Source: Psychrobacter sp. JCM 18902 (lineage in GTDB: Bacteria; Pseudomonadota; Gammaproteobacteria; Pseudomonadales; Moraxellaceae). Taken from it: 64,000 bases of DNA. The number at the start of each line of letters is the position of its first letter. Position 1 is the first letter of the stretch. The notes under the pieces were generated by a model. That model did no database searches and was not told the origin of the DNA. It saw only the letters and a program-made list of their open reading frames with translations. Shown here piece after piece: positions 39,250 to 45,543 of this stretch. The stretch covers positions 1,054,001 to 1,118,000 of the forward strand of contig NZ_CAJHBK010000001.1 of NCBI RefSeq assembly GCF_904846615.1, read 5' to 3'. Both the position numbers and the translations under genes were made by a program.

Positions 39250-40260
39250 ATGACTGGTGCTACGAATGATAAAACAGCAAAAGTAGAGATATATGAAAGC
39301 GCTGATGGGAAGGCGCAGATAGAGATACGCTTAGAACACGACACACTATGGCTCTCACAAGCCCAATTGGCGACGCTGTTTGAAAAAGACTCGGATACCA
39401 TAGGATTACATCTAAAAAATATTTATAAAGAAGGTGAGTTAGACCCAGAAGCAACTACCGAGCAATCCTCGGTAGTTCGTCAAGAGGGGAATCGGCAGGT
39501 TCGACGTAACATTCGCTTTTACAATCTAGATGCTATTATTTCTGTGGGTTATCGGGTTAATTCTAAAAAAGGTACTCAGTTCCGTATATGGGCAACGCAG
39601 CGCTTACGTGAATACTTGGTTCAAGGTTATACACTCAATCAAGAGCGCTTTGATAAAAACTCAAGCGAGCTACAACAAGCTTTAAATTTAATTCGAAAAA
39701 CCGCGCAAAGTCCCGAACTTAACACCGATGAAGGACGCGGCTTGGTTGAAATTATCAGCCGTTATACACAGACATTCTTATGGTTACAGCGTTATGATGA
39801 AGGCTTGCTTGATAATCCCGCAGGGGAGGATGGCGGTATCTTACCCAGTCCGACTGAGGCGATGGCAGCGCTGACGGATTTAAAATTGCAGCTGATAAAT
39901 AGAGGCGAGGCGACTGAGCTATTTGCTAAGCCTCGTGGTAATGGTTTGGACAGCGTACTGGGTAATTTACAGCAAACGGTGTTTGGTGAGCCTGCATATC
40001 CGACCATCGAGAGTAAAGCCGCGCATCTGCTATATTTCATGGTCAAAAATCATCCTTTTACCGATGGTAATAAACGCAGCGGTGCTTTTTTATTCGTGGA
40101 TTTTCTGCATCGTAATAATCGACTGCTCAATGATAAAGGTGAGATGGTTATTAATAATACGGGGCTTGCTGCATTGACCTTGTTGGTTGCCGAGTCTGAT
40201 CCCAACCAAAAAGAAACCTTGATTAAGCTGATTATGAATATGCTGTCATTAGAGGGTTGA
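39250..40260 (+). CDS. RhuM-family protein fused to a Fic/DOC domain
   Basis: The 336-residue product has two parts. The N-terminal half is RhuM-like (IEIRLEHDTLWLSQAQLATLFEKDSDTI, RFYNLDAIISVGYRVNSKKGTQFRIWATQRL), a domain also seen in virulence-island and phage proteins. The C-terminal part is a Fic/DOC domain with the catalytic motif HPFTDGNKR at residues 268-276. Fic proteins transfer AMP or phosphate groups to target proteins and can act as toxins. No antitoxin or inhibitory helix was recognised in or beside the gene. AAGGAAAAACTAAG precedes the ATG. It is followed by mtfA after 96 bases. Confidence 0.88.
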   Translation: MTGATNDKTAKVEIYESADGKAQIEIRLEHDTLWLSQAQLATLFEKDSDTIGLHLKNIYKEGELDPEATTEQSSVVRQEGNRQVRRNIRFYNLDAIISVGYRVNSKKGTQFRIWATQRLREYLVQGYTLNQERFDKNSSELQQALNLIRKTAQSPELNTDEGRGLVEIISRYTQTFLWLQRYDEGLLDNPAGEDGGILPSPTEAMAALTDLKLQLINRGEATELFAKPRGNGLDSVLGNLQQTVFGEPAYPTIESKAAHLLYFMVKNHPFTDGNKRSGAFLFVDFLHRNNRLLNDKGEMVINNTGLAALTLLVAESDPNQKETLIKLIMNMLSLEG

Positions 40261-41915: not shown

Positions 41916-42020
41916 GAAGCATCCTTATCGCAGTGGTTAACGAAATATACGTTACTGTGAATATAAATGAGAAAATTTCACAAGATTACTGAGCAAAAAT
42001 TTATTATTTAAAAGTTACTA

Positions 42021-42190
42021 GGGTGTGTCCTTATTCTAAAAATGGTGATAAAAATGAGATAAATTGCCGTCAAACAAGGAAAGTAGCGCAAATAATATCA
42101 AGATATTCATAAGCTATTTAACGATGTTTGGCAAAATTTAGCCATTTTTAGTCCATTTAGATAATAATCGATTGAATTGAGGACACGCCC
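42021..42190. mobile_element. MITE-like element, 170 bp, with terminal inverted repeats
   Basis: The ends are GGGTGTGTCC and GGACACGCCC, extended imperfectly inward, and the element is flanked by TA on both sides, consistent with a two-base target duplication. There is no coding capacity. The end sequence and TA target recall the IS5-family (IS427-like) elements, so this may be a non-autonomous derivative moved by such a transposase. A degenerate copy lies at 55333-55480. Confidence 0.7.
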
Positions 42191-42310
42191 TAAGTAACAG
42201 ATCGTTTTTAGTAGATAAACCGGAATGATACGATAATACAGCAGAGTCATAATATGGTTATGATGTAATGGTTTATAACACTTATATCATTGAAGCTCGT
42301 AGAGAACGCC

Positions 42311-42796: not shown

Positions 42797-42935
42797 TAAA
42801 TGTTGAGTATTATTTTTATTAATATCTAAATATAAAAAGCTATAAACCCTAAATAAGAATCACAGTACCAATCATGAGAGCTTATAAATGGCACTGTATA
42901 AAACTATGAACCTAACTTCTAAAGCCATTGGTTTG

Positions 42936-42963
42936 TTTTCGCATAATGTATATTATGTTAAAT
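42936..42963 (+). other. dif: Chromosome dimer resolution site dif (XerCD)
   Basis: The 28-mer matches the E. coli dif site at 25 positions: the XerC half carries CGCATAA, the centre is TGTATA and the XerD half is TTATGTTAAAT, the last two being exact. Only positions 1, 2 and 4 differ. dif is normally single-copy and sits at the replication terminus, where XerC and XerD resolve dimers with FtsK. No second copy was noticed in the window. Confidence 0.88.
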
Positions 42964-43024
42964 AAACAGTATCTGATAGTAAATTCATGGGGGTTATGTT
43001 ATGCATCATAAACAACTAGTTAGT

Positions 43025-43246
43025 TTAGTTAATAACCGTTTCAAATGTATTGCAATCATCACTATAGTAAACCTTAACTAAATCTTCTTTATCGCTTATC
43101 GAAGCTTTAAAGCTAAACTGTTTGATGAGCTCGCTCTATGTATCACCATCATACTGGCTACATCTGCCAGAATAGCCAATCAGCACTTTATCCAATTCCT
43201 CATTCCTAATCATCACCCAACAGCCAAATTCACTATCATTCAATTG
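43025..43246 (-). pseudogene. Decayed gene fragment with internal stop (copy 1)
   Basis: One minus-strand frame reads SEFGCWVMIRNEELDKVLIG, continues through YDGDT, meets a TAG at 43136-43138, then resumes coherently as SELIKQFSFKASISDKEDL and on to a TAA at 43025. A related but further decayed stretch lies at 45302-45406, on the other side of the recombinase gene. No family is recognised. Confidence 0.45.
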
Positions 43247-43771
43247 TTAGCATCTTAATCATCTGGCTCTTTGGTAAGAATGCTTTTGCAATACGTTAGG
43301 CATATAAAGATATCACTACCTATAGATTATTAGCTTAGCTCAAAAATCATCACTCTTTTGGTTATCTGTTATTTCATATCAGTTCTAATAGCGCAGGTAT
43401 GATCTTACAATGCTCCTACTTAGCCTGTCTGCAAGTCTGGTTTAGATCTACCTTATAGTGGCAAATATCATGACCAACTAAGCTGTAATACTTTTTGCTT
43501 TAAGTTATCAAAAACCCCTTCACTATTCGTAATATAATTCCATCTAAAGCACTGAGTTAACAACCGCCAAATTTGCACAGAACAGTACTATGCCCCTAAT
43601 TTTTATATTCTGTGCACGTACAGGAGCATGGTTTTTATCGAAAATATGTTCAATCAAATGCTAGGCAAAGCATCCATCTTATATTAAATCCAATTATTTG
43701 ACCAAAATAACCAGTAATAACAACCTACAGCTCAATAAACGCATAGCCTACTCCTCCTTCAGTCGTTATAC
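43247..43771. other. Gene-poor stretch before the recombinase
   Basis: No intact gene was found. Short minus-strand frames such as one reading HLIEHIFDKNHAPVRAQ (about 43650-43600) hint at further decayed sequence but could be chance. Confidence 0.35.
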
Positions 43772-43808
43772 TATAATCATCCCCAAGTGAAGGTTGGGGA
43801 TGATTATA
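43772..43808. terminator. Perfect hairpin upstream of the recombinase
   Basis: Perfect 15-bp arms TATAATCATCCCCAA and TTGGGGATGATTATA with a 7-base loop are followed by CTTTTTAA. It is terminator-like although no intact gene precedes it. Confidence 0.55.
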
Positions 43809-44004
43809 CTTTTTAACCTTATATTTAAAGGGTTTTGTAAACTCACTAATGAATAACAGTGTCCATGTTAGTGTCCAATAGCTATCTACGTTTCCCAGAA
43901 GACGCTTTTCAGGATTTATAAAACGTGCGCAAAGATTGCTCTAAATCTAAGTATAGAGATAATAGATTAACATTCACAATTTACCTAGCTTATAAAGCTG
44001 ACGG

Positions 44005-45282
44005 ATGTACATCATGGCTGTCGATAATTTAAATGATATCAATAAACTTGAATGCCGAGATAAAGATTACTCTGTCAGTGTCTCAGGTATCGCGGGTTTA
44101 AGTATTCGTATTTATCCAAATGGTAAAAAGGAATACTACTTACGGTACGCTCATCCCCATATCGATGGTAAGCGCCCTAGAATAATGCTAGGTAAGGTCG
44201 AAGATATCAGTCTATATGAAGCTAAGTATAAAGCAGAAACTATACTTAGCACGGTCGCACAAGGCTCCGACCCTAAAGCCATTCAAAAAAAAGAACAAGT
44301 CAATAAGTATGCTCATCTAAAGAACGCCACATTTGCTGATATTACACAAGTTTGGCGAGACCACAAAACATCAAGTCGTCATCACAGTAAATCCAGAAAG
44401 CGCGCGTTTAGTGAATCGACCCTTAAATTTTGGGATTTATGTCTAGGATATATGTGTCGCGAGATTGGCGACTTAAGAATGAACGATATCACGAGCGAGA
44501 TGATATTAAGTGTGTGTGAGGCGATTCAGAATAATGAAAATCAAGCAACCTTCGTTGGTGCCAGCACTCGGCTTTATACTGAAAAGGTCTTCTCATTTGC
44601 TGTCGCAAGAGGATTATGCGATAGAAATGTAGCTATTGATACACGTGGTGAGCTAGCACCTGCCAGTTCAGGTAACCACTTACCAGCCATCACCAAACCT
44701 GATCAGTTTGCCACTCTCCTAAACGATATGTCCAATTTTAAAGGCGCAAGTAAAATCACATTAGAAGCGATGAATTTACTGCCATATGTCTTTGTGCGTA
44801 GTATCGATTTGCGGTCTATGCGTTGGCAAAATATAGATTGGGATAATAAGCTATGGGAGTTTTCCCCAACAAAAGGCGAAGGTCGTGATGACATGGTATC
44901 GCACTTAGTTGTACCACTAGCCACTCAAGTAATTGAGCGCTTACGAAAAATAAAAGCAATCACAGGTCACAAAGAACATGTATTTGCATCGATACGTGCC
45001 TCAAGCAATCCTTATATTAGTAAAGCAACACTAGTACAAATATTTCATAGGCTTGGCTACAAAGATATTCAATGCGCTCATGGATTTCGAGCATCAGCTA
45101 AAACCTTACTTATGGAGCAACCTGAACTGCGTTATTCAGATATCGTGACCGAGCTGCAATTAGGACATCGAATAAAGGATACGCATGGCGGCGCTTATAA
45201 CCGATTAGATGAAATAGATACTAGGGTACAAATGATGCAAGATTGGGCTGACTATATAGATGAGCTCCGGTGTTCAACGTAA
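44005..45282 (+). CDS. Tyrosine recombinase/integrase (P4-integrase type)
   Basis: A 425-residue site-specific recombinase. The N-terminus is the DUF4102-like arm-binding domain (LSIRIYPNGKKEYYLRYAHP, RIMLGKVEDISLYEAKYKAE), followed by a core-binding domain and the catalytic domain with Arg in RSIDLRSMRW, HGFRASAKTLL (H-x-x-R), LGHRIKD and the final Tyr in GGAYNRLDE. Such integrases usually sit at the edge of genomic islands next to a tRNA. Here no tRNA and no other island genes are visible, so it looks like a solitary remnant. It lies about 1 kb from dif and between two decayed related fragments. Confidence 0.9.
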   Translation: MYIMAVDNLNDINKLECRDKDYSVSVSGIAGLSIRIYPNGKKEYYLRYAHPHIDGKRPRIMLGKVEDISLYEAKYKAETILSTVAQGSDPKAIQKKEQVNKYAHLKNATFADITQVWRDHKTSSRHHSKSRKRAFSESTLKFWDLCLGYMCREIGDLRMNDITSEMILSVCEAIQNNENQATFVGASTRLYTEKVFSFAVARGLCDRNVAIDTRGELAPASSGNHLPAITKPDQFATLLNDMSNFKGASKITLEAMNLLPYVFVRSIDLRSMRWQNIDWDNKLWEFSPTKGEGRDDMVSHLVVPLATQVIERLRKIKAITGHKEHVFASIRASSNPYISKATLVQIFHRLGYKDIQCAHGFRASAKTLLMEQPELRYSDIVTELQLGHRIKDTHGGAYNRLDEIDTRVQMMQDWADYIDELRCST

Positions 45283-45301: not shown

Positions 45302-45406
45302 TTATCGTTCAACAATAATATGCCTATTACCTTCACAATGCACAATAAGCCCTTTTCATAGCATCTCATTCCCAGTCATCACATAACAACCAAAACACCC
45401 TAACAT
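45302..45406 (-). pseudogene. Decayed gene fragment (copy 2)
   Basis: The minus-strand frame reads MLGCFGCYVMTGNEML, a TGA, then KGLIVHCEGNRHIIVER. It parallels copy 1 (FGCWVMIRNEELDKVLIG), and DNA similarity between the two extends upstream to about 45435 (compare 43193-43265). The gap to lldD holds no other feature. Confidence 0.4.
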
Positions 45407-45543
45407 TCGATTGTTGGTAGCTTAGATATTGGAATTTCTGCAACCTCGCGCTTGTGATCAACGACCAAGCCGACGGCTTCTAAGCTCCGGTATCTTATCT
45501 GCAATAGCTCACTTCTTGTACTGACAAACTCTATAGCCTCGGT

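Follow-up and report, generated by a model that had tools for sequence, protein, structure and literature searches.

The window, as the whole stretch of 64,000 nucleotides analysed here is called, carries a chromosomal dif site on the plus strand at positions 42936-42963 (XerC arm, 42936-42946; centre, 42947-42952; XerD arm, 42953-42963). The 28-mer, TTTTCGCATAATGTATATTATGTTAAAT, is identical to E. coli dif at 25 of 28 positions, the mismatches at bases 1, 2, and 4 all falling within the XerC arm, and its centre TGTATA and XerD arm TTATGTTAAAT are the same as those of E. coli dif. Direct comparison with the E. coli site thereby confirmed the preliminary description, in which 25 matching positions, a full XerD half, and TGTATA had been reported. 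The E. coli dif sequence used here was verified with a 31-mer containing it, which matched 5,174 of 5,426 E. coli genomes. With up to three mismatches allowed, the 28-mer was matched once in the window, not at all in 100 shuffles, and once in the whole genome (5 contigs, 3,309,288 bp), so that the single copy for which the preliminary description proposed a search was found over 3.31 Mb. When the centre was left free, again with up to three mismatches, the sole additional place, also on the main contig (C1), had three mismatches. The dif pattern was present in 104 of 105 Psychrobacter genomes and was found in 86 of 119 genomes drawn across the family. Positions 42936-42963 are thus confirmed as the chromosomal dif of this Psychrobacter, an ordinary dif in itself, on which XerCD presumably act.

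Three further observations were made on dif-like sites. The left flank CC(G/A)TTGGTTTG (42925-42935 of the window) is kept genus-wide beyond the 28-mer. One genome, G178 (77% complete), has two dif matches on separate contigs (C65:2085 and C57:96), with contamination possible. In another genus of the family, locus L095 contains a pair of dif-like sites, separated by 7 kb and pointing the same way (G079:C1:1431975 and 1439005), the extra one ending in A, and looks like an element between two dif copies.

The position of the site was examined on C1 (3,223,788 bp), where dnaA lies at 2,681,695 and dif at 1,096,936, a separation of 49.2% of the circle. GC skew was sampled in 30 stretches in two arms and in one more spanning dnaA; between ori and dif all 15 stretches of 17-20 kb had positive skew, and in the other arm 13 of 15 had negative skew, the exceptions beginning at C1:1,118,001 and 1,195,001. 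Cumulative GC skew within the window peaks at 43,003, 67 bp from the start of dif, and over 221 contiguous kb it peaks 37 kb to the right of dif (1583 versus 1516 at dif). The octamer GGGNAGGG, which we take to be the KOPS motif and which was the sole motif checked for polarity, points toward dif in 19 copies and away in one over 681 kb; the nearest copies are 30-40 kb from dif, and it is absent from the top 30 of an unbiased 8-mer ranking. The genome encodes XerD above the curated cut-off, a protein whose best match is XerC under the NCBI cut-off, and FtsK_gamma (FtsK-gamma); the XerC-like gene lies beside a dapF-like ORF. With dif nearly opposite dnaA, a skew switch, and converging KOPS, the window lies at the replication terminus as had been proposed, and the switch predicted near 42.9 kb was found there in the window, its regional maximum being 37 kb off.

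To the right of the XerD arm, at 42964-43010 (plus strand, with TTCATG at 42984-42989), motifs resemble the left ends of gin-bearing islands and indicate the left end (attL side) of a GInt-type island. Farther along, a P4-type tyrosine recombinase of 425 aa, open throughout and matching Pfam Arm-DNA-bind_3, Phage_int_M, and Phage_integrase, is encoded on the plus strand at 44005-45282. Four elements lie before it on the same strand: a decayed left-end segment (43168-43257), which is the left copy of an imperfect direct repeat of ~100 bp; a hairpin-like block with a sharp left edge, B1 (43567-43635), kept upstream of most of the integrase copies that were compared, whether or not these adjoin dif; a palindrome, ATAATCATCCCCAA...TTGGGGATGATTAT (43773-43807), conserved upstream of the integrase and recurring at tandem-unit ends in G149, which is probably the core site of the integrase; and two direct GTGTCCA repeats (43859-43877), conserved with the integrase and candidates for arm-type sites. 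Repeat comparison placed the right copy of the decayed repeat, 67-69% identical to the left one, at 45321-45430 (plus strand), between the integrase and lldD. Block B1 consists of an inverted repeat around a conserved loop, and its arms differ together in some genomes, e.g. L083 and L173, a pattern as in a structured RNA or DNA hairpin, for which it is a candidate; a search for RNA families around dif gave 3 weak matches, none reaching the gathering score.

In G149 (L162, 3941-11313), the ends of a tandemly repeated 3.69-kb unit fall at the TTATCCCCA palindrome, which lies between dif and the integrase; two ORFs of at least 91 aa, by eye not integrases, were seen in one unit. To the left of the gene neighbouring dif, the window has a short element-like stretch with terminal inverted repeats (42020-42191, AGGGTGTGTCC ... 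GGACACGCCCT), and a RhuM-like protein with a Fic domain is encoded near dif at 39250-40260.

Several other boundaries were tried and rejected. Block B1, whose left edge is sharp, was considered as the island edge, but six junctions sit at dif. The repeat copies at 43168-43257 and 45321-45430 were discarded as an att pair since in many other loci the repeat occurs on the left of the integrase only and since L075 carries the repeat but no integrase. A tRNA-targeted island was discarded as no tRNA was found in the window.

The two sides of dif were compared across the genus. On the left, gene c0 is kept in 21 and gene c3 in 17 of 24 relatives; on the right, gene content varies between these genomes. 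Relatives of the integrase (at least 77% identity, some of them fragments; matches below 77% were left out as paralogues before counting) occur in 63 of 105 genus genomes, its own included, among the matches listed, and none was found outside the genus at E 1e-90 among 299 family genomes. Of 70 listed matches that were placed, 57 are on contigs with dif, 12 are on other contigs, and one is in a genome without a dif match; two genomes (G174 and G193) contributed two matches each. All 57 listed matches on dif contigs are co-directional and on the XerD side; 40 lie 1,042-1,233 bp and 17 lie 2-60 kb from dif. Conservation beside dif is thus limited to the XerC side.

A four-gene operon accompanies the integrase in some relatives. 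In G193, the P4-type integrase beside dif is followed by genes of 426, 525, 781, and 150 aa, overlapping by a few bases, of which the first two match Phage_integrase and the other two have no match in Pfam or NCBIfam; its cargo includes HEC-05-like and Gabija-like genes, and attR lies 48.6 kb from dif. Sibling islands at dif show the characters of GInts, namely a ginABCD operon, cargo, an AT-rich 3′ end, and end repeats, and the last 130 bp of 8 islands have 29-37% GC, below the preceding DNA in 6 of the 8. Judged by gene order and by the features in the published description, the dif-adjacent islands are GInts. The ginC gene was found in 11 of 105 genus genomes, in two of which it is cut by contig ends; all ten copies on dif contigs are on the XerD side, co-directional, and at hand-calculated distances of 3.1-6.3 kb from dif, and the eleventh (G157) is on a different contig near a contig end. 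A P4-type integrase lies between dif and ginA in 8 of the 11 genomes, G157 included, where it is directly upstream of ginA. In G125 and G135, ginA starts ~140 bp from dif by extrapolation, and no P4-type integrase is there among the matches listed. No gin genes were found at dif in 29 loci from the remaining genera of the family (some of these loci share a genome, and 20 have a flank of 1.5 kb only), and a profile searched against 390 genomes from the order matched G066 alone, in a draw whose other genus members are mostly unlisted.

The point of exchange was deduced from the ends of the islands. In 6 of 25 distal integrase units (L139, L142, L149, L151, L154, and L165), likeness to dif-adjacent DNA of other genomes begins exactly at dif base 19; 16 begin near block B1, not at base 19, and the remainder are truncated by the end of a contig, begin at the palindrome, or sit 2 kb away from the dif of their own genome. 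To the left of base 19, a common island end is present in the six units, GAACCTARCTTTAGGTACGCA, which was found in nine loci, with the half-site broken in L144 (G169); a match in L072 with 10 mismatches was left out of this count. About 130 bp of the island end is conserved, including GGTTCATGAACC. At two positions where dif has T, the intact attR junctions carry A (base 18 in 8 of 8, base 21 in 5 of 8), and these bases are therefore island-derived; the block common to island end and dif thereafter is GTTAAA, bases 22-27. At the other junction, all 38 of the 38 distinct loci that lack a TTCAT motif to the right have T at dif base 28, and the 25 loci with the motif have T in 10, C in 11, and G in 4. 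The junction bases at attR and the variable base 28 thus place the exchange inside the XerD arm, and we infer that the strands are exchanged, with their exact cuts, in GTTAAA, outside the XerCD exchange region. In the window, GTTAAA at 42957-42962 (plus strand) would be the predicted 6-nt crossover overlap, by extension from the attR junctions of the sibling islands and of one E. coli genome. Imperfect direct repeats of 10-11 nt flank the sibling islands, TATGTTAAA followed by T, C, or G at attL and TAAGTTAAAY or TATGTTAAAT at attR. A second end type, AAGCAGGCCTCACCTATTTATGTTAAATTGC, holds the full XerD arm and was found in 9 loci with 0-1 mismatches and as a variant in L153. No displaced dif was detected by similarity to the whole 28-mer. 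A 4.26-kb island in G170 has both ends and two ORFs only, neither a recombinase.

In E. coli chromosomes, 340 Gin places were found, and five chromosomal records taken from a spread listing were examined. The gin operon is at dif in all five loci, four of them annotated beside hipA. The distance from dif to the start of ginA is 144-198 bp in L276, L278, L279, and L280, where hipA is annotated on the far side of dif; in L277, an IS interrupts ginA and hipA is unannotated in the stretch, but dif is present together with the left end that follows it in L276. The right junction in NZ_LR881940.1, one of the five loci, is CATAA/GTTAAAT (slash, junction), as in Psychrobacter, and its flanks joined at GTTAAA match other genomes at 301 of 301 bases, an empty site. 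The joined-flank query was covered to at least 80% in 3,328 of 5,426 genomes, and queries spanning dif and ginA reached at least 80% coverage in 98 and 154 of the 5,426, numbers that may include other Xer sites. GInts are placed at several E. coli hotspots in the available text of a defence-island paper (PMC10121019), and not every GInt therefore need target dif.

Plasmids were sampled at 14 loci from 118-209 records with a Gin match. In 11 of the 14, a Xer site with a free centre and the XerD arm TTATGTTAAAY lies upstream of ginA, the site of L286 having a poor XerC arm; L281 and L285 have a transposase gene and no Xer site upstream of ginA, and in L273 the start of ginA is missing. GinA of the plasmid loci that have it is 25-43% identical to that of G193, and one GinA, WP_001459747.1, is annotated both at dif (L278 and L280) and at a plasmid Xer site (L282). 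On the XerC side of the GInt-bearing plasmid Xer site, an ISNCY family transposase gene was seen in 5 of the 14 loci (L272, L274, L275, L282, and L284).

The P4-type integrase at 44005 might itself be the enzyme that targets dif, as its invariable side and its usual distance of 1,042-1,233 bp among the listed matches, and its confinement to the genus in the 299-genome search, could suggest. It has, however, its own core palindrome and arm repeats directly upstream, gin occurs at dif without it among the listed matches of G125 and G135, and in those E. coli and plasmid loci that have a Xer site upstream, ginA begins within a few hundred bp of it, too close to accommodate this integrase; we regard this role as unlikely. 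Since gin sits at dif in G125 and G135, in which no P4-type integrase was found among the listed matches, the gin genes are the likely dif recombinase. Integration of the islands at dif by host XerCD, as IMEX elements, would account for their entry at dif, the rebuilt dif, the XerD half-site left behind, and the absence of a recombinase gene from the 4.26-kb island; CTX phage and GGI use dif in the text of PMC5357621 available to us. The island end, however, has no XerC arm or matching centre such as an IMEX site would show and as the TLC and GGI sites retain in that same text, the A at base 18, and often at base 21, puts the exchange to the right of the XerCD region, and the siblings carry ginABCD; host-driven integration is accordingly rather improbable. 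It had also been suggested that the remnants near dif merely reflect the tolerance of the terminus to insertions, and neutral decay with no special link to dif would fit the variable right side in many genomes; the strict bias in side and direction, the base-exact junctions at dif in relatives, and the conserved left side make it very improbable. That explanation is incomplete, and comparison indicates that the remnants are mostly degraded ends of dif-targeting islands on the XerD side. A plasmid-type Xer site that landed in the chromosome, already thought less likely than dif in the preliminary description, is practically ruled out, even though plasmid Xer sites have the same XerD arm, by the single copy, genus-wide conservation, skew switch, KOPS polarity, and position opposite dnaA, a second, better dif having been sought in the whole genome and not found.

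What we consider by far the best account of the locus is a functional dif that doubles as a GInt attachment site, with exchange in the XerD arm and with remnants of such islands in the window. The left end in the window and the left ends of six gin-bearing islands are 63-79% identical across some 800-900 bp, a large share of which is the integrase module. The window genome contains no ginC, and the element in the window has no ginABCD operon; the 21 kb on the right of dif showed no attR half-site. Since ginC is absent from the genome and no attR half-site was seen, the GInt history of the window rests on the left-end similarity. The window would thus hold at most a GInt relic, consisting of a degraded left end, an intact integrase, and a decayed repeat on each side.

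In the mechanism that we propose, XerC and XerD would bind the two 11-bp arms and, activated by FtsK at the septum, resolve chromosome dimers by recombination in the 6-bp centre, and the same 28 bp would serve as the GInt attachment site. GinA and GinB, with GinC and GinD, would exchange strands in GTTAAA, inside the XerD arm; it is from gene content and junctions that the exchange is attributed to the Gin proteins. The host would retain the left part of dif and the island would supply the terminal part of the site, so that a full dif is rebuilt at the left junction and the displaced right part of dif remains as a XerD half-site. A later island could enter the rebuilt dif and displace the older one outward; such successive entry would leave the XerC side conserved and the XerD side layered. 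In the window, the gin operon and cargo would have been lost, and the degraded left end and the P4-type integrase module, which is often located between dif and ginA, would persist.

The site agrees with the dif/XerCD-FtsK system of E. coli in its 28 bp, 11-6-11 layout, centre, XerD arm, terminus location, KOPS polarity, and the presence of a XerC-like protein, XerD, and FtsK-gamma, and differs in three XerC-arm bases and in the left flank kept in Psychrobacter. As far as the available text of Bardaji et al. (2017, PMC5385486) describes the GInts of the Tn6571 family, the islands share with them the ginABCD order, cargo, AT-rich 3′ end, 10-11-nt imperfect repeats, and 6-nt exchange, staggered cuts of 6 nt having been inferred there for GInts; they differ in their target, here dif or a plasmid Xer site and there an ABC transporter gene and ssb, and the window differs in having no gin genes. 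Insertion at dif that leaves a working dif is shared with the IMEX as described in the literature text at hand (CTX, VGJ, and TLC phages, GGI, and LME-1), but the dif GInts have no XerC arm or matching centre at their end, exchange inside the XerD arm, and carry their own recombinases. The pdif modules of Acinetobacter, in the accessible part of PMC6449649, likewise make Xer sites hubs of gene mobility but are modules with plasmid pdif sites, and that paper detected no pdif among 31 plasmids of Psychrobacter. According to the available portion of PMC2731167, roughly one in four dif sequences adjoins mobility genes, and the accessible portions of PMC8865565 and PMC9765430 were also part of the literature basis. 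The whole word 'dif' is absent from the main text of PMC5385486 and from the text obtained of PMC10214605, the whole words 'dif' and 'hipA' are absent from that of PMC10121019, and the terms sought are absent from PMC12907356. The literature searched, mostly open papers without supplements, contained no report of GInts targeting dif; Table S3 of Bardaji et al. may list such sites under other names.

Beyond the window, it is probable that a widespread GInt lineage is specialised on XerCD sites. By reading the XerD arm common to dif and plasmid Xer sites, one island could move between chromosome and plasmid, always rebuilding a working resolution site, and could pile up layers of cargo, phage defence among them, on the XerD side. 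What is unexpected is that islands equipped with three recombinases of their own seem to land harmlessly at the dimer-resolution site, with the exchange beside and not within the XerCD region. If this is true, it would tell where islands are to be sought in many gammaproteobacteria, account for the one conserved and one layered side of dif, let islands pass between plasmids and chromosomes, and open the poorly understood GInt reaction to tests on a target of 28 known bp.
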